From NCBI GenBank assembly GCA_025558075.1, contig JAHLKF010000002.1, positions 1,240,001-1,304,000 on the forward strand: 64,000 bases of DNA, in the 5' to 3' direction. Positions 1,077 through 43,175 of this stretch are shown one piece after another. Numbering within the stretch: the stretch's first letter is position 1; each line of letters starts with the position of its first letter. Source of the stretch: Gaertneriomyces semiglobifer. Taxonomy: Eukaryota; Chytridiomycota; Chytridiomycetes; Spizellomycetales; Spizellomycetaceae. The notes below the pieces were generated by a model, which was not told the origin of the DNA, ran no database searches, and was given only the letters and a program-made list of their open reading frames with translations. A program made the translations under genes and the position numbers.

Positions 1077-2119
1077 ATTCTTGTAGCTTCTCGCCGTTGA
1101 CAGGTATCTGCTACAGAGAAGATGCTGGTGCACAACGGGGCGGGCCGGACGGACGAGGGCAGTGACGAGCGCAGATAGGCGCGACAACAGCTCGTGAGTT
1201 CTGGCCAGCGTTATCCACGGACTTTGTTACTGCAGGGCAGACACTTCTGGTTGCTGTCCACTGCTATAGCGAGCGCTCCCTTCCCACAACGTTCTGTAGG
1301 AGGACCAAAGTTCAGGTTCCACCCGTAAATTGCTGAAATTATCAGAAGAACCACAGAACCTTTCACCCTGGGGGTACTCTTGCACTCTTTGAGATGAGAT
1401 GCTGAAAGGGACAAGGCGAACCTGCAAATATCCTCACAAAAAAAAGCGTCTGCCATGTCCAGGTTCCTTATCAACTTTCCGTGTCTGGCATGAGCCGAAA
1501 AGGCCTGACCTTTAAGCACTCTCCACACCTTACCTTCTGGCCATCTCTGAGCCATTGATTAACGGGCCTACAAGTCATGCCACTCCTTTTTATTGCGAGG
1601 ACGCTGCATTTGTGAGAATGGATTCATTACAGAATCCTAAAACGAACGTATGTACTGTTATGGCCACGATGCTCATGCCCGATGAGAGTAATCAGGTAGA
1701 CCACTGGCGAATGTCGAACCGTATATGCTAGCCACTTTGCCCCAATCATCCAGGATGATACCAGTGACTGACCAAAACATCCATGTGCCATGCAGGAAGC
1801 TCCAAAGCCGCCCTTCAAAATAAGACATTCTCCGCTAATATCCGTCGACTGATGCCGTCTCCTTACAGCTCTTCGACAGGCACTTGGCCACGCATCATAG
1901 CATTCTCTCTTAAAACCGCTGCTGAATTATGAGTTCGCTGTCGCCGTTCGGCCTTCAAAAGCTGTTCGCAGCGACGTTGTTAAGTGTAAGAATCGATAAC
2001 GGAGGTTGACGGGAGGAAGCCAAAAGTGTTCGACGGGCGTCGAACTGAATTTGAAGACGGATCGTCGTGCATTTGCGCCATTTGGAAGACGACGGAAGAG
2101 TCAGCATTGTGTGCCGACA
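1077..2119. other. Intergenic region between divergent BPL1 and PRP31
   Basis: About 1 kb separates the two divergent starts. The minus strand holds a 114-codon ORF (1211-1555) with no recognisable domain, no splice partners and cysteine-rich, low-complexity composition. I do not regard it as a gene. The space should carry both promoters; no strong motif stood out. Confidence 0.5.
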
Positions 2120-4058
2120 ATGGATGAAGATCTTTTGCAGGATTTGGAGGAGCTTGGGGACGACAATGTGGAAATCAAAGAGGAGGAAGATGACGATGAT
2201 TTCGACATTGACGAGGATGTGATGGATGAGGATGGCAAGGATGAAAAGGAGCCAATACGGTCGGCCGCTCCCGGCGACGATGTGTTCTCTGTAGCTAAGC
2301 TAACAAGTTCACGAAATTTCAAGGAGATCATGAAGGTTAGTCGATCGAAGCGTGTTTTTCGGATAGTGTATGTAGACCTCTCATCTTTGAGTTGTAGCAA
2401 ATAAAGCAGTTTTCAAGTGCACCGAGATTACCGGCACATAGCTCTGGACCGGTTGAGGACGATCCAGAATATACATGGATTGTGCAGGCCAATGGAATAA
2501 CGGTGGACGTGGACAATGAAATGTTGGTGGTTCACAAGGTATTCAATTCAGTAGTTCGATGCCCACATAGCTGTGCTTATATCGTACGCTTCTTAGTACA
2601 TACGAGACCACTATGCTCCAAGGTTTCCTGAGCTTGAGTCGCTCATTCCGAACCCGATCGACTACGCGCGGACAGTGAAACTGATTGGCAATGAAATGGT
2701 ATGCAGGACTTCAATGACAGCCGTAGCGTGCTACTTGCGGCTCACGACACTCTACAGGACCTTTCGACGCTCGATCTCAAGTCGTTTCTACCCTCCGCGA
2801 CAATCATGGTCCTAACAGTTACGGCCACGACCACGAATGGCCGTCCAATCCCTGAGGATGCTCTACATAGCGTCAATGAAGCATGTGATATGCTATTAGA
2901 GCTTGAGCATGCTAAGCGGACGGTGAGGATGGGAACGGCTGCTGTTATTTTCCACTGTGAATCTCATCTTTTACTTTGGCCAGATATTGGAGTATGTCGA
3001 GTCACGGATGACATTTATTGCACCAAATCTGTCTGCATTAGTTGGAAGTAACATTGCAGCAAAGTTAATGGGCTTAAGCGGTGGTGTTACCGGTCTTAGC
3101 AAGATTCCGGCATGCAATATTATTGTTCTCGGCAAGGTCAACAAATTGAACACTGGGTTATCCTCAGTTACCCAGCAAAAGCACCATGGTATGATATATC
3201 AGGTGGATATGATTGCAAGTGTACCGCAGGAATGGAAGCGAAAAGCTGCCCGGCGTCTGGCTGCCAAGTGAGTTCAAGGGTCACATACAAGCACATTGGT
3301 TTGCATCTAATATGAACACCCTAACCGCTGCAGAGTTGCATTATGTGCGCGAATTGATCAGGGACGACAATCTCCCGATGGAGCAGCAGGACGCGAATAT
3401 CGAGTAAAGGTTCAGAAAGAAATCGACTTATTAATGCAACCGCCGCCTGGGAAAGCAATCAAAGCACTACCTGTACCCGACGAGGGTCCTAAGAAACGAC
3501 GAGGAGGAAAGAGGTAAGTTTGGAGAAGCCTCGGTTTTGGAGGGACCACGTCAACCAAAAACGGCATGCCTCACGTTGTTACGTTTCAAATAGATATCGA
3601 AAGGCAAAGGACCGGTTAATTCAAACAGAATTATCCAAAGCTGCGAACCGTATGCAATTTGGGGTTGCTGAAGAGGAAATAGGATACCATACTGGTAGCA
3701 CAAAGGGCTTGGGTCTTATCGGCGGTCAGACCGGTAGAATTCGAACTGCGCAAGCAGACGCTCGCGTCAAGAGTAGGTGTAGCCACATGCTTATAGCGAT
3801 TATTCTGTTGCTAACAATATCACGTCAGTCGGGGTTGCCAAAAAGCATCAGAAACAGTGGATGAACAGCTCGAGTGCAACATCTGGGTTGTCCTCTTCTG
3901 TTGCATTTACGCCTGTTAAAGGAATCGAACTTGAAAACCCGGAGGCTGCCTCACAGCGCATTAAGGATGTTAATGACCGCTACTTTGGCTCCACAACGTT
4001 CCTAAAGCGCCCAGCTCAGAACGAGGTGGACGTATCGAAGAAACCAAGGATTCAGTGA
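2120..4058 (+). CDS. PRP31: U4/U6 small nuclear ribonucleoprotein Prp31
   Basis: Eight exons read in frame: 2120-2335, 2398-2538, 2597-2698, 2758-2922, 2984-3267, 3334-3513, 3594-3772 and 3829-4058. They give 498 residues, matching the family's usual length of about 500. An acidic N-terminus leads into the Nop domain, with signatures such as ACDMLLELEHAK, YVESRMTFIAPNLS, LSKIPACNI and WKRKAARRLAAK. A KKRRGGKRYRKAKDR basic stretch and the ANRMQFG and SVAFTP motifs of the Prp31 C-terminal domain follow. Prp31 binds the U4 snRNA 5' stem-loop together with 15.5K and bridges U4/U6 to U5 in the tri-snRNP. All seven introns are 56-66 nt with GT-AG ends. The stop codon is only 29 nt from that of the convergent kinesin-5 gene. 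Confidence 0.97.
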
Positions 4059-24001: not shown

Positions 24002-25451
24002 TGTGGAATAAAGTGTGTCTGTGTGTCGATGCTGGCAAATCGCCCTCCAACCGTGCTCAACTTGCACGGTGGACAAAACCTTTCAGTTGATGATGACGGC
24101 CGTCTTAGTGAACTCTGATTTAGAATACCCAATCTTCGTAGCCTAGTGTTTCTCTGATGCGGCGGCGGAGAGATCAAGCCTCTCAACCGGCGACGGCTCC
24201 GAAGCTGTACGAGAGCAAAAGGACGAGTTGAACAGCGGACTGTATGCCATTAACTGCAGGGCAGCAGTAACCGAATGCCAGTTACCGGCATGCGGCATTA
24301 ACGACCCAACGAGTAATGCCAACAACCGTCGGCCGTTCCTTTGTCAGGAAACTTCCACTTTTCGCGCACACTATGAATGCAGCCGATGCAGGAACCTGAG
24401 GACCGCGGGACAACGTGCAGGATGTAGATGATGACAGCCACAAAGACCTTCGTTATGGCATCAGTACGGTTGTATGGAAGGGCTTTACAACTTTCACCGG
24501 ATCTCGCCATGTGAGGGCCGTTGGAGATGGAAGAGTCTGCCCTGAACCACCTAACCGGCATCAAGAGACGAAGGCGAGCGGAGCCTGGATCATATTAAGA
24601 AACTGACCAGGGGACCGTGGTCATCCTGCTAGTGTTCACTGTACAAGCGTTTGAACAGAAGCTTCAACGGCACCCCGGACGTAAACTGCTTCGGGCACCA
24701 GCCACTTCTTGGCGGTGATCCGGAATGGCCTGCGTCAACATCATCGTTCATACATCACCCCAATGCGAATGTTGACTGTCTTTGGCCGTTACCCGAAGCG
24801 CTCCGAATTATCTGATGAACGGCTTCCTATAAGATCAGTCTTCCGCTCGCCACATTTTTTTTTTGCCGAAGCGCTGTTATAGATTTGGCGCTCGGGTCTC
24901 GTTGATGAGCAGAACGAAGGAGTGCTGAATGGGCCCTCATATTAGAGGTCATCTATGTGATTGCGGTGACCGGTTAGGCGGAGAAGCTCGTCATTTCCAA
25001 CACCTGGTCAGTTCCGGCCCATCCATGACCGTGGTGACCATCTTATGCCCGAGCATGTCAGACGATCTGAAGGCAGACGGAAACCGCGGAATGCCCGAGG
25101 ATTCATCCTGGGTCTGAGGGACAATGCGAAGTCTGATACACTGGACCAGGTATATATACCGGCCATGCGAGGGACATTCCACAACCGGCAAACCGTGTCA
25201 TCCCCGCGGAGATGACGCTTACATAACGCGAATTCCGATGACTGTGCCGTTGACGCGTAGGAGCCATTCCACACATCGCAGCCGCTTACAAAAGGCAGAG
25301 ACTGTTTTGAAAGGACAGCGGATATGTCGCACGGTTGCAGTGGTTGTTTCAACCTCAACCTCAGAGAGGTAGTCCTCCGAAAGGCCTGTGAAGTTGGTTG
25401 ACGTGTGTTTACCACTTCAGGTGTATGTGGCCATTGCGGCAAAACACCACA
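24002..25451. other. 1.45-kb gap between CHK1 and the RING-YEATS gene
   Basis: This is among the longest gene-free stretches here. Short ORFs occur on both strands, the longest being 144 codons on the minus strand at 25008-25442. They lack domains, start context and splice partners. A run of ten T lies near 24856. I see no tRNA, transposon or repeat; a long divergent promoter or an unspliced non-coding transcript is possible. Confidence 0.4.
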
Positions 25452-26468
25452 ATGCCGGAAAAGGTTTTGGATGAAGGTACCGATTCCAGTGTGGAGTTAC
25501 CCTCTCACAAGCGCAAAACAGATCAGCCGGATCCTGATATTTCCGCAAAGCGGCGTTCTCGCTCGCTCTCACGCGTTAAGGACGGAGTAGATGGACCAAC
25601 CGAATTTACATGTCCCCTCTGCCTCAAGTTGTTGTTCCGTCCGGTACGGACTCCCTGTCAGCACATCTACTGTCAGCCGTGCTTGACACAATGGCTCCGC
25701 TTTGATGAACTGGCGTCCCGGTCGCGAAAGCCGTGCCCATTGTGCCGGGCTCCATTGGCACGCAAAATATTGAAATTTGTCGACCAAGAGCTGGAATCGC
25801 GAATGCGTCGTGATTACGGCTCCTTATATGAAGAGCGCCAACGTGAGGTCCTTGAGGAGGAAAGCGAACGCCAGAAAGTTTTAACGGTTTACCGAAAATT
25901 ACAGATCGGAAACAGCGAGCAGTACATAGAGCCAGCAGGGGGTTCGATGAACGCGCATCGATGGTCATTTTTTGTCCGCATGGGCGGTATTGATGATATC
26001 GGTGATTATATTGAAAGGGTTACGGTTACATTACACCCGACGTTCCACCCGCCGGTTGTAGTTTTGCGTAGGCCACCTTTTTGTGTGCAACGGGTTGGTT
26101 GGGGAGTGTTTCGAATTGGGGCAATCATTAAAGTGAAAGCCCCTTGGAGACTAGGGCCTAGCTGCGGAGGTGGTGACGAGATGAGCGTAGGTTGGATGTT
26201 AACGTTCGACGGAGGTGGCGTTTCCGAAGTGGAACTTGAGCTAATCCGGAATGCACAAGATACGGCAGAGAATTGCTCGTCAGTTCATCCCGCGCCAAGT
26301 TTGCGGTCGGCTCGTAACTCCTTCCGGCGGCGCGCCGCAATCGGTGCTTCAATGAGTGCGACCCCCGTGGCCAATAATCATATTGATGATACTCCCAGTA
26401 CTGACGAAGCTGAGGTCAGTCAGGACGAGAGCAATGCATCGGATAGGTCGGACGCAGATCGCAGCTGA
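25452..26468 (+). CDS. RING finger - YEATS domain fusion protein
   Basis: A single intron-free frame of 338 residues. Residues 31-46 are a basic Arg/Ser-rich stretch that could be a nuclear signal. A classical C3HC4 RING spans residues 54-98: C54-x2-C57-x11-C69-x-H71-x2-C74-x2-C77-x17-C95-x2-C98. A charged helical linker follows (about 105-150). Residues 165-262 read as a YEATS domain: HRWSFFVRMGGIDDIGDYIE, VTLHPTFHPPVVV, RRPPFCVQRVGWGVFRI, closing with WMLTFDGGGVSEVELEL. The acyl-lysine pocket residues of AF9/Taf14 (His, Ser/Thr, Phe, Tyr/Trp) appear conserved as H195, T197, F198 and W217. The predicted role is an E3 ubiquitin ligase steered to acylated histone tails. The C-terminal tail (270-338) is disordered and acidic. 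The fusion is read directly; the function is inferred. Confidence 0.85.
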   Translation: MPEKVLDEGTDSSVELPSHKRKTDQPDPDISAKRRSRSLSRVKDGVDGPTEFTCPLCLKLLFRPVRTPCQHIYCQPCLTQWLRFDELASRSRKPCPLCRAPLARKILKFVDQELESRMRRDYGSLYEERQREVLEEESERQKVLTVYRKLQIGNSEQYIEPAGGSMNAHRWSFFVRMGGIDDIGDYIERVTVTLHPTFHPPVVVLRRPPFCVQRVGWGVFRIGAIIKVKAPWRLGPSCGGGDEMSVGWMLTFDGGGVSEVELELIRNAQDTAENCSSVHPAPSLRSARNSFRRRAAIGASMSATPVANNHIDDTPSTDEAEVSQDESNASDRSDADRS

Positions 26469-38594: not shown

Positions 38595-40301
38595 TTACTG
38601 AACAATGCATTTCTCTTTCTTCTTCTTGGAAACACTGTCTGACGACGATGACTTTGAGGTCTGCGGTTTCCCATCCACTTGCTGACGATCCGTTTCTTCG
38701 CGTTCTGCGCGCTCCACGAGATACGCCTCGTGGTTCACCCTTTCCTGCTCTTGTAGAGCAAGGGCCAAAGCGAGATCTCTGTCGTCGCCTCCTTGTTCGT
38801 TGCCATCAACAAAGTAATTTGTCGGTGTTCCCGTGTCGCCTACGTCTATGTAATCATTGAGCGATATAACTCCACTTCCAGGCTGCTGCTGTTGCTGATC
38901 ACGAGAAGCTGGCACGGACAAATCGGCGGCAGTGCCAGGAGAGAACTTGTTGAAACAACCGTCAACAAAGTCGGAGTCGCCTTCCACATTGTCAAACGTC
39001 TCCCAGACAACTCCAGGAGCATCCACAAACCCTTGATCTGTCACCAAGGTGAACAGACCTGATGGCTGACTGTGGGCTGGCAGTTCCTCGTTTGGTGGCG
39101 GTACATGCTTGAGCAATGTGGAGAAATGATTGTTACGGAACAGCACGGCTAATGAATTGGGTGGCAGCCGGGCGTACAGCTCATGTAAGCCGTGATAAGT
39201 TAACTGAGACGCCGTCTTGGAAAGAAACGTCCGGCAAGCTGCTGCGGTTTCCAACACCGTCTTCTGCTGCTCGGACGGGCCTTTCTCGGGGTTCGCTGCT
39301 ACTTCACCCGCCGCGATGTCGCCTTCGATGATTTTCTCGACCAGCTTGTTATAACTCACGCATTTTTCTACTACAGCGTGGTGTGCCTCTGTATCTTGAG
39401 GATCTACTGTCCAGCCATGGCACAATGTTATGTTGAACATGTCGAAGACAACAAGTGCTGACGTTAGCTCAAAGCTAAAGGGTGACGAGAAGTGGATGTT
39501 GACGTCCAGTCCCGTTTGCAGAGTAGGCAGTAAGTCCAGCACCATAGATGCATTTTGCCAATAGTCCTGAGTGCTAGCTTGAAGCTGTTCGCTCATCAGT
39601 GGCTGCTCAGGTTCCTGTGAAGATCGCGCTGACAACCTCTGGGCAACGTATTCACCCAAGATCTGTGCCAAGTCGTCATACGACACACTAGATTGGTGGA
39701 GACGAAAGTCAATATCGCCACGCAATAAAAGGACATTGCATATAGCGATTAACGGACACGGTCCATTGAGGTTTTGGGTGACGATTTTCAGCCGGCGGGG
39801 AGTGTTGGACCTAGGATCCAGGAAAGTGATGGACTTTAAGCGGTAATTGGTATCTGCATCTAGCGCGGCAGCAGGAGCAACACCACCGGAGCTATTATGG
39901 GTACTAGAAGGGCGTTCAGCGCTCGCATGGTTCCTCGGCTGTTGCGACGTCTGTTCGTCACTGACAGATGTTGCTGGAATCTCTGAGCTGTCAAGTACAT
40001 CCTCCGCTACGACACTGTGAAGAGGTTCGACTGTTTCTTTTCCAATCTGAGAACTGGCAGCATCATTCGACACCTTTGTGCCGGTGCTGGCCATGTTGGT
40101 GTCGGCTTCCAAAGCCGTGCTAAATACAGGCTTTGCGGTGGCCGCATCGTCATCCGCACCTCCATCAGCGACGGCCTCCACTGCAACAGAGTCGGAACCA
40201 CTCTCCTTCCGAGCAGATGGTTCCGCAATATCGATGCCCTTGCCGTTTTCTGATGCCTCCATCATGCAGGAAATGCCGCTTGCTGTTGGCGCCTCGTTCA
40301 A
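38595..40301 (-). CDS. MINDY-family deubiquitinase with C-terminal CaaX box
   Basis: An intron-free frame of 568 residues. The first 150 are disordered and acidic. The MINDY catalytic domain begins YRLKSITFLD, then KIVTQNLNGPCPLIAICNVL with oxyanion Gln176 and catalytic Cys182. Further landmarks are LPTLQTGLDVNIHF, FDMFNITLCHGWTVDPQD, QLTYHGLHELYARLP and the catalytic-His segment FRNNHFSTLLKH. A ubiquitin-interacting helix occurs near the end (GGDDRDLALALALQEQERV). The protein ends KKKKEKCIVQ, a polybasic stretch plus a CaaX-like box. MINDY-1/2 trim K48-linked polyubiquitin from the distal end. The ending predicts prenylation and membrane tethering; Gln at the last position favours farnesyltransferase. 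Confidence 0.93.
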   Translation of the reverse strand: MNEAPTASGISCMMEASENGKGIDIAEPSARKESGSDSVAVEAVADGGADDDAATAKPVFSTALEADTNMASTGTKVSNDAASSQIGKETVEPLHSVVAEDVLDSSEIPATSVSDEQTSQQPRNHASAERPSSTHNSSGGVAPAAALDADTNYRLKSITFLDPRSNTPRRLKIVTQNLNGPCPLIAICNVLLLRGDIDFRLHQSSVSYDDLAQILGEYVAQRLSARSSQEPEQPLMSEQLQASTQDYWQNASMVLDLLPTLQTGLDVNIHFSSPFSFELTSALVVFDMFNITLCHGWTVDPQDTEAHHAVVEKCVSYNKLVEKIIEGDIAAGEVAANPEKGPSEQQKTVLETAAACRTFLSKTASQLTYHGLHELYARLPPNSLAVLFRNNHFSTLLKHVPPPNEELPAHSQPSGLFTLVTDQGFVDAPGVVWETFDNVEGDSDFVDGCFNKFSPGTAADLSVPASRDQQQQQPGSGVISLNDYIDVGDTGTPTNYFVDGNEQGGDDRDLALALALQEQERVNHEAYLVERAEREETDRQQVDGKPQTSKSSSSDSVSKKKKEKCIVQ

Positions 40302-40450
40302 CTGTGCAGCCGTTCGCTCGCTTTTGAACGCGCGACGGGCGCCTGCATCATTTTGTTAGCGATAACACAAATGTTGGTTCTCGTTGAACATTCCACTTTC
40401 AATTCAACGCTGTCAATTTCAATTAGCATTATGATGAAGGAGTTGCGATG

Positions 40451-41097: not shown

Positions 41098-42789
41098 TTA
41101 ATGCTCACAGAGGCTGACTGGTCGCTCGAACAACCCCTCATTCTCACTGTCGATGAAATATTTTCTCTCTTTCATCATGTCTTCTCGGTGTTTCTTCGCC
41201 TCTTCCATAGAAACGCGTCCGCAATAGCTTACGATCCTTTCAAGTACATGATAAGGTAGGTGCCTGAAAGGCAACAACAAGGAAGTGTGGAGGTAATTTA
41301 TCAACCAGCCTGGGTTCTGTGGTGGGACGTTCGACGTCGACAGGATGGATTCTTCGGGGTCAACGAGAAATACGGCAAGAATAGACCGGTGCCCACGCTT
41401 GCGTGGATCAGCTAATCCAAATGGAGCAACCCTGTGTTGATATCTGTTTGGAAAAACGACTCCAAGACCTTCACGGCATTCGACACGTCCCAAGTGTTGA
41501 TTTGCCGCTTCATCGTCGGTGAGGCCATATACACGCAGCACGCCATGGCGGTCATCCTGCGCATAATCCATTTCGCCCTCTTCTACTGCCATCCGGAAAT
41601 GCAGGCTCGTTTCAGTAATGTTCTCCATTGATAGATAGTAGATTCCGGAGGCGATTATATTCTCATTGCGCATGCCTTCAATGTGCCAGCTACCTCCTGG
41701 GAATGCAGGTGATTCGGGTGTCAAATGGGTGGTTGCTAGCTTTATAATTAGCTGGACTTTTTTCCCACGTAAAGTATATGTCTTTCGCGCCTCCTCGCCC
41801 TCCAATATTGCCTTGAGGGCGGAATCATCCCAAACCTTGAGAGCAGACCACATACTCTCCGTGGCGTAATCATGTTCCACAAGGTACTTTGTAAAGTTGG
41901 TGACTTGAGCATATTCCGGCAGTTCGCCGAAGTCTTGAATGCAGCTGTCAAAAAGGGGGATGAACGCTCCAATAACTTTCCTCAATGTCGTATACAACTC
42001 TGCGTGCTCCAACGGGTTTAAATTGTTGATATAACTTTTCACTGATACTGCCCCTTGCTCGGATATGACAAATTCAGCAGGAAGCCACTGGTACATTTTG
42101 GACACATCATCAGCATGGCGAGCCGGCGGCTTGATGAACACATTGAAAACTCCTCCGCCGTTGAGAAATTGGTGCCAAAGAATATTTCCCCCATTCTTCT
42201 TCCTCATTTCGTCAAGTTGATCGTTATTGAATGCCCTTGAGACGCAGTTGATATAAGGCCAGAGGCTGGGGTGGACAATATCCAGGACCTGACTGCAACT
42301 GCCAGGATGCCAATCTTTCTTCGAGTCCGGAATGTCCTCTAAGCGTTTGATTTGCGACTTAAACGTATCATGCAGTTCCGGAGGAAGCATGGGTTCGCTC
42401 GTATGAATGGATTTAACCGGCATTCGAGTCGGATGGTACATAGCATCGTAACGAGCTATCCGAATGGCCAGGTCAAAAATGGCCGCATGGGAAGGTGGAG
42501 AAGTGTATTCGTCACCAGGTAGCTCTTCTCCTGCTTCCTCGGCCAACTTCCAGTGCTCCTCGGTGCGTGCACTTACATCCTCGTCATCCGAGTCTAACGG
42601 CACTTCAAGGCCCAAATCCCACTGCCCAATCTGTTCCGCGGTTTCCGTCCGCCATTTTTGAACTATCTCCTCGTCGAAGACCTTTCGCTGCCATTGTGGC
42701 TTGTTGCGAATTGCGAATCCTAAGGCATTGACCGCCTGAGTGATGCGAGTCACGGGGCTCCTGCATTTGTTAGTGTCGATTGTCGACAT
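41098..42789 (-). CDS. DUF4246 protein, putative Fe(II)/2-oxoglutarate-type oxygenase
   Basis: An intron-free frame of 563 residues typical of the fungal DUF4246 family. Conserved landmarks include DIVHPSLWPYINCVSRAFN, WLPAEFVISEQGAVSVKSYI, NPLEHAELYTTLRKVIGAFI, FPGGSWHIEGMRNENI, FPNRYQHRVAPFGL and RSILAVFLVDPEE. The HxE pair in GSWHIEG, the distal His in YQHRV and the Arg in HRSILAVF match the metal and 2-oxoglutarate binding layout of the double-stranded beta-helix oxygenases. The substrate is unknown. The family is common in fungi and often expanded. The start at 42789 gives a full-length N-terminal domain. Confidence 0.88.
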   Translation of the reverse strand: MSTIDTNKCRSPVTRITQAVNALGFAIRNKPQWQRKVFDEEIVQKWRTETAEQIGQWDLGLEVPLDSDDEDVSARTEEHWKLAEEAGEELPGDEYTSPPSHAAIFDLAIRIARYDAMYHPTRMPVKSIHTSEPMLPPELHDTFKSQIKRLEDIPDSKKDWHPGSCSQVLDIVHPSLWPYINCVSRAFNNDQLDEMRKKNGGNILWHQFLNGGGVFNVFIKPPARHADDVSKMYQWLPAEFVISEQGAVSVKSYINNLNPLEHAELYTTLRKVIGAFIPLFDSCIQDFGELPEYAQVTNFTKYLVEHDYATESMWSALKVWDDSALKAILEGEEARKTYTLRGKKVQLIIKLATTHLTPESPAFPGGSWHIEGMRNENIIASGIYYLSMENITETSLHFRMAVEEGEMDYAQDDRHGVLRVYGLTDDEAANQHLGRVECREGLGVVFPNRYQHRVAPFGLADPRKRGHRSILAVFLVDPEESILSTSNVPPQNPGWLINYLHTSLLLPFRHLPYHVLERIVSYCGRVSMEEAKKHREDMMKERKYFIDSENEGLFERPVSLCEH

Positions 42790-43175
42790 GACGGCAGGTT
42801 ATCGGGCAGGTACGACAGAGAATAGAGCTGCATCGCTGTCAACCAGGGGGAAATATCACGCCCGCAAACCGGAACATCGCAGCGCGTAGACTCTGCAACG
42901 CGACACGAACCTCAAAGTGGACGTTAGGAAACAAGAAACGGAAGGTCGGGATGGCCACCGAAGGTAATGTCTATGGCTAAGGTCTGTGATTATTCATTAA
43001 ACGGATACGCAGAAAAGGCGGAGGGGAATCGCCATCGGACCACTCATAAAAAGAATACCGAGAGGCCCCAGTCTATCAACTCTACCCGCTAAATCAACAA
43101 AGATAGCGCTCTGCCGTAGTAATCTTCTAAAAAAAAACACCCATCAAGTAAGCGTAGCTGGCATTACAGAAGCAT
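42790..43175. other. Gap between DUF4246 start and SVF1 stop
   Basis: About 390 bp, both flanking genes on the minus strand, so this is the DUF4246 promoter plus the SVF1 3' UTR. An A-rich run (ctaaaaaaaaacacc) lies near 43128. Nothing else is supported. Confidence 0.4.

Follow-up and report, generated by a model that had tools for sequence, protein, structure and literature searches.

The stretch of DNA analysed here (the window) comprises 64,000 nucleotides of Gaertneriomyces semiglobifer, a chytrid fungus in the Spizellomycetales, positions 1,240,001 to 1,304,000 of contig JAHLKF010000002.1 in assembly GCA_025558075.1, and it contains at 25452..26468 on the forward strand a gene for a protein of 338 amino acids in which a RING finger is followed by a YEATS domain. 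The gene forms a single open frame and its product is supported by homologue search. An alternative in-frame ATG lies upstream at 25425, and 25452 appears the likelier start because the orthologue P0002 begins with the same MPEKV residues. A first-pass annotation, made from the letters of the window, had described the frame as uninterrupted, and this is confirmed by translation, while shuffles and codon use argue against chance. The longest open frame, counted from stop to stop in six frames, had a mean length of 110 codons and a maximum of 311 over 2000 mononucleotide shuffles. Codon use correlated with that of five pooled neighbouring frames at 0.50 in the reading frame and at 0.17-0.32 in the other five. 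Base composition is like that of six neighbouring frames, with a guanine plus cytosine (GC) content of 0.527 (neighbours 0.477-0.526) and a third-position GC content (GC3) of 0.513 (neighbours 0.481-0.533).

All parts of the protein are given below in forward-strand coordinates of the window. A basic stretch near the N-terminus, K20-R37 (25509..25562; KRK...KRRSR), matches the pattern of a possible bipartite nuclear signal and is kept in P0002. It is followed by a C3HC4 RING finger at residues 54-98 (25611..25745), matched by Pfam zf-C3HC4 (PF00097) with an E value of 2.9e-9 and 37.1 bits against a cut-off of 21. All eight zinc ligands are present (C54, C57, C69, H71, C74, C77, C95 and C98), with R99 next to the last of them. 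The RING fold was judged from sequence and from model confidence, the structural search having returned YEATS rows; predicted local distance difference test (pLDDT) block means are 90-96 over the RING, residues 81-90 reaching only 66. L56, P96 and R99 stand at what we take to be the hydrophobic, proline and linchpin Arg/Lys positions through which RING-type E3 ubiquitin ligases contact the ubiquitin-conjugating enzyme (E2). Behind the RING, residues 104-142 (25761..25877) form a helical linker according to secondary-structure assignment with DSSP on the model; in a linker-only profile comparison it resembles the part behind the RING of LON-RING proteins.

The YEATS domain spans residues 143-267 (25878..26252). 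Pfam YEATS (PF03366) matches residues 168-229 with an E value of 1.6e-15 and 57.3 bits against a cut-off of 22, and the Ig-like YEATS fold is present over the whole of residues 143-267 in the structure model. Of the checks that the first-pass annotation had suggested, the profile searches found both domains and the structure prediction gave a YEATS fold. Its intact C3HC4 RING is borne out by Pfam and by the zinc ligands, and its YEATS domain stands as a domain, although the range proposed for it, about 165-262, was slightly short of the modelled fold. A C-terminal tail, residues 268-338 (26253..26465), begins with a helix at 268-275 and is otherwise mostly below a pLDDT of 50; the net charge after residue 262 is -5. 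A Pfam scan of the protein with E values up to 1 gave no LON (PF02190), TPR, B-box, PHD or bromodomain match.

With 87-88% identity from end to end, HDU85_003132 of Gaertneriomyces sp. JEL0708 (P0002) is the closest protein. Its differences, gaps counted, cluster in the tails: 8 of 48 positions in the N-terminal tail, 5 of 55 in the RING, 5 of 39 in the linker, 7 of 125 in the YEATS domain and 19 of 71 in the C-terminal tail. Besides the window protein, a single-sequence search gave this orthologue and one distant two-domain protein, P0003. Family-profile searches gave many more. The RING-linker-YEATS plan is shared by at least 33 proteins among the matches listed, 18 from the first profile search (120 of 129 matches listed) and 15 from the second, a count in which the window protein and the orthologue are contained. 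In the set of 18 (A2), Pfam YEATS and zf-C3HC4 were both found in every member at E <= 0.001. Six of the 15 later members were scanned directly with Pfam and nine rest on listed Pfam accessions. Counted outside the 33 are the YEATS-only proteins P0090, P0134-P0136, P0138, P0139, P0142 and P0144, as well as P0141, which has a RING and no Pfam YEATS listed, and P0143, which is truncated.

A chance frame or a chimera was considered and rejected on the strength of the orthologue, the wider family and the frame statistics. That the gene is a chimeric or fortuitous fusion in one assembly is indeed hardly credible: named species are few, and Gaertneriomyces sp. JEL0708 is the sole named fungus among the RING-YEATS matches listed, but the frame is continuous, the orthologue has the same length and 31 more proteins have an identical domain order. 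Other named members are from the bdelloid rotifer Rotaria sordida (P0125) and the green alga Parachlorella kessleri (P0133). The latter has a Pfam YEATS match only, its gene model holding just the start of a RING, perhaps through a missed exon. The spread of the family looks broad but patchy in these homologue searches, which require shared five-residue words. Viral contigs scanned with A3 gave 22 pattern matches and no relative, which is weak evidence of absence since the peptide patterns were few and short. In the same way, prokaryote genome contigs scanned with P0001 and A4 gave 46 and 50 pattern matches and no relative, again weak evidence from short patterns.

Conservation in the RING is high. 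All eight zinc ligands are found in 30 of the 33 members, the others being P0127 and P0137, which start inside the RING, and P0133, which is without most of it. P96 and R99 are each present in 32 of 33, and together with a hydrophobic residue at position 56 they are kept in nearly all members that have a whole RING. At the start of the YEATS domain, G153 and N154 are found in 33 of 33. Further into the domain W171 and F/Y198 are present in all 33, F220 in 32, W217 in 31, T/S197 in 28 and H195 in 27.

Several of these positions correspond to the acyl-lysine pocket of known YEATS domains. In AF9 the acetyl-lysine pocket is made of F28, H56, S58, F59, Y78 and F81 (PMC12362337). Contacts in YEATS2 include H259, S261, Y262, W282, G283 and F285, and binding is lost when the sandwich residues are changed to alanine (PMC5651844). 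In the window protein, F174, H195, T197, F198, W217, G218 and F220 stand at the corresponding places. The first-pass annotation had named H195, T197, F198 and W217 as kept, and they are, with F174, G218 and F220 in addition. Judged by these residues, the putative acyl-lysine pocket, an aromatic clamp of F198 and W217 with a Thr/His lining, is kept in the window protein. Nevertheless, the pocket is not uniform across the family. A clade of P0012, P0013, P0014, P0016 and P0018 retains the Trp and is without the His and the Ser/Thr, a loss which suggests that its ligand may have changed. The rotifer protein has Arg in place of the pocket Trp, and P0140 has lost both His and Trp.

Individual members vary in other ways. 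P0121 has a RING followed by two YEATS stretches, the second without the GWG motif. P0013 has a long N-terminal extension (about residues 1-320) with a weak UBA-like Pfam match at E 0.089, below the cut-off, and P0130 and P0132, which are reminiscent of proteins from filamentous fungi, have a long RING insert between zinc ligands six and seven. Near the C-terminus, acidic motifs like EDEDW or DEDESW occur in P0003, P0008 and P0133, and DPDY in P0130 and P0132. The idea that a conserved acidic tail binds histones was considered and dropped as a family feature, such a tail being seen in just 11 of 33 members.

The genome (20.9 Mb, 66 contigs) holds one further YEATS gene detectable in a six-frame search, which may miss genes split by introns. 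This gene, on contig C7, matches Yaf9 best (6.5e-31) and GAS41 second, and the RING-YEATS gene therefore coexists with a canonical YEATS reader. A LON-RING parent was also looked for in this genome. LON matches were found on C7 and C1, with no RING match to P0001 reported at either, and the frame on C1 reads as a Lon protease. The nearest other RING lies in a 503-codon frame on C18, with 49% identity over residues 48-122 and without a YEATS match. This frame (1237-2748, forward strand, of locus L008, C18:214340-217576) could be a paralogue of the RING module. The window itself has 12 frames of at least 250 codons, of which six were scanned with Pfam, giving PPR, chorismate synthase, Zds C-terminal, MINDY deubiquitinase, DUF4246 and mpaB-type oxygenase. 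The MINDY-type deubiquitinase gene (38595-40355, reverse strand; PF04424, 6.4e-82) and the RING-YEATS gene are 12 kb apart, a functional link not being indicated, and the DUF4246 gene is found at 41098-42798 on the reverse strand (PF14033, 1.4e-102).

As for the origin of the architecture, kinship on the RING side points to LON-RING proteins. Among the RING-only matches of the family profile, 71 of the 101 listed carry the LON domain PF02190. When the linker alone was compared with hhalign, 29 RING-YEATS proteins matched 73 LON-RING proteins with a probability of 97.4 and a score of 44, in a comparison biased in favour of LON-RING by the linker-containing profile with which that set was gathered. 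Control linkers gave probabilities of 71 for RNF168 (4 sequences), 26 for SPX-RING (4), 0.7 for TRIM (6) and 0.1 for PEX (4), and a mixed pool of 48, which includes some LON-like proteins without LON annotation, gave 87. Weaker support comes from the motif FPxx(x)YxxRxxE, present in 7 of 30 RING-YEATS proteins, 44 of 76 LON-RING proteins and 2 of 48 others; when the motif is relaxed, the counts become 21 of 30, 65 of 76 and 17 of 48, respectively.

Distances between RINGs and between YEATS domains were correlated across 29 members (P0002, P0127, P0133 and P0137 left out) with a Mantel r of 0.73, which none of 5000 permutations reached, a correlation that shared descent of the hosts predicts as well. 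A tree built from 38 YEATS domains placed the five canonical ones together behind a branch with support 96/98, a grouping that recurred in 95% of 200 bootstrap trees. P0103 and P0137 form long branches in this tree, its bootstrap had not fully converged, and the five references are without AF9, ENL, Taf14, Sas5 and prokaryotic YEATS domains. Among solved structures YEATS2 was the best match of the family profile (4.1e-22); by itself, the window protein did not point to YEATS2 in particular, and structure comparison was tied. Taken together, the linker match, the Mantel correlation and the YEATS tree fit a single fusion in which YEATS replaced LON, followed by long divergence, with loss and horizontal spread both compatible. 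In evolutionary terms, the RING-YEATS protein would then behave as a LON-RING ligase whose LON substrate-binding domain has given way to YEATS.

The reading we prefer, with a probability of about 0.58, is that the gene encodes a small RING-type E3 ubiquitin ligase with its YEATS domain as substrate recruiter. In the nucleus, the YEATS domain would grip, between F198 and W217, a lysine bearing an acetyl, crotonyl or similar acyl group, most probably on a histone tail. The RING would bind E2~ubiquitin, and ubiquitin would be handed to neighbouring lysines of the protein or nucleosome that bears the acyl mark. The basic stretch K20-R37 suggests the nuclear location, and ubiquitination, acyl-lysine binding and a chromatin target are all proposed from residues and modelled fold. 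More tentatively, and as something we hold possible rather than probable, the RING-YEATS proteins may be an old eukaryotic family, made once by replacement of LON with YEATS, that turns lysine acylation directly into ubiquitination, as a dedicated acyl-lysine degron or a histone cross-talk ligase not apparent from the usual model organisms.

Other readings share part of this evidence. The protein could be an active E3 for quality control or signalling that, like LONRF proteins, binds non-histone proteins, acylated or not, the YEATS domain serving as a general substrate-binding beta-sandwich. The RING and linker are nearest to those of LON-RING proteins, LONRF2 ubiquitylates misfolded proteins (PMC10226518), pocket residues are lost in several members, and a nuclear-signal-like stretch was found by pattern match in just 5 of 33. 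We nonetheless consider this role unlikely: the window protein and the majority of the 33 have kept the pocket despite strong divergence, something difficult to account for unless acyl groups are bound, and the window protein has a basic, nuclear-type stretch.

Doubt may also fall on the catalytic half. Class VI TRIMs are reader-type TRIMs. Their RINGs have been reported to lack ligase activity (PMC6487577), and this is the main caution against the E3 ligase reading. It speaks for a chromatin reader or adaptor with a pseudo-ligase RING that merely dimerises or recruits a partner, an alternative to which we give still less credit, as zinc ligands, the hydrophobic residue 56, P96 and R99 are kept in nearly all members with a whole RING and a scaffold would not need them.

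The first-pass annotation knew of no RING paired with YEATS, and a literature search on YEATS with RING or E3 likewise found no paper on a RING-YEATS protein among the matches listed, subscription papers being thinly covered and a mention in a domain catalogue being possible; PMC11758572 names YEATS in the reference list only. The idea of an undescribed architecture holds to that extent, but the architecture also occurs in other genomes, and what has been found is less a one-genome curiosity than a widespread RING-YEATS family for which the search gave no earlier description. Cross-talk from acylation to ubiquitin is usually ascribed to separate proteins. A compact protein expected to read one mark and write another would be a minimal testbed for acyl-dependent ubiquitination, and relatives that span a chytrid, a rotifer and a green alga may reflect an overlooked route from one protein tag to another. 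Such a family would suggest that E3 specificity evolved with the RING-helix module left constant and the binder behind it exchanged. It could also serve as a guide in designing degraders selective for acyl marks.

By its domains, the protein is a putative chromatin-reader RING E3, with YEATS where known examples carry a bromodomain, PHD or other readers. A precedent for a RING and an acetyl-lysine reader in a single protein already exists in the E3-family members TRIM24, TRIM28, TRIM33 and TRIM66 (PMC9594046), which differ in having a bromodomain and PHD instead of YEATS, and B-boxes. The known readers of UHRF1 are for methyl-lysine and DNA, not for acyl-lysine. In parallel with the proposed role, UHRF1 is a histone-reader RING E3 that ubiquitinates H3 (PMC13142947). 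On the YEATS side, the pocket of YEATS2 (H259/S261/Y262/W282/G283/F285) has its counterpart in the window protein, with its S and Y replaced by T and F, and YEATS2 lies across the 96/98 branch. YEATS2 is part of the ATAC complex, and to our knowledge has no RING. Yaf9/GAS41, a subunit of remodelling complexes, also differs in having no known RING and in lying on the other side of that branch from the RING-YEATS proteins. The nearest RING-plus-helix module is that of the LON-RING proteins (LONRF1-3 and relatives), whose stretch behind the RING matches as well; the window protein, without a LON or TPR match, differs from them in having YEATS where they have the LON substrate-binding domain.
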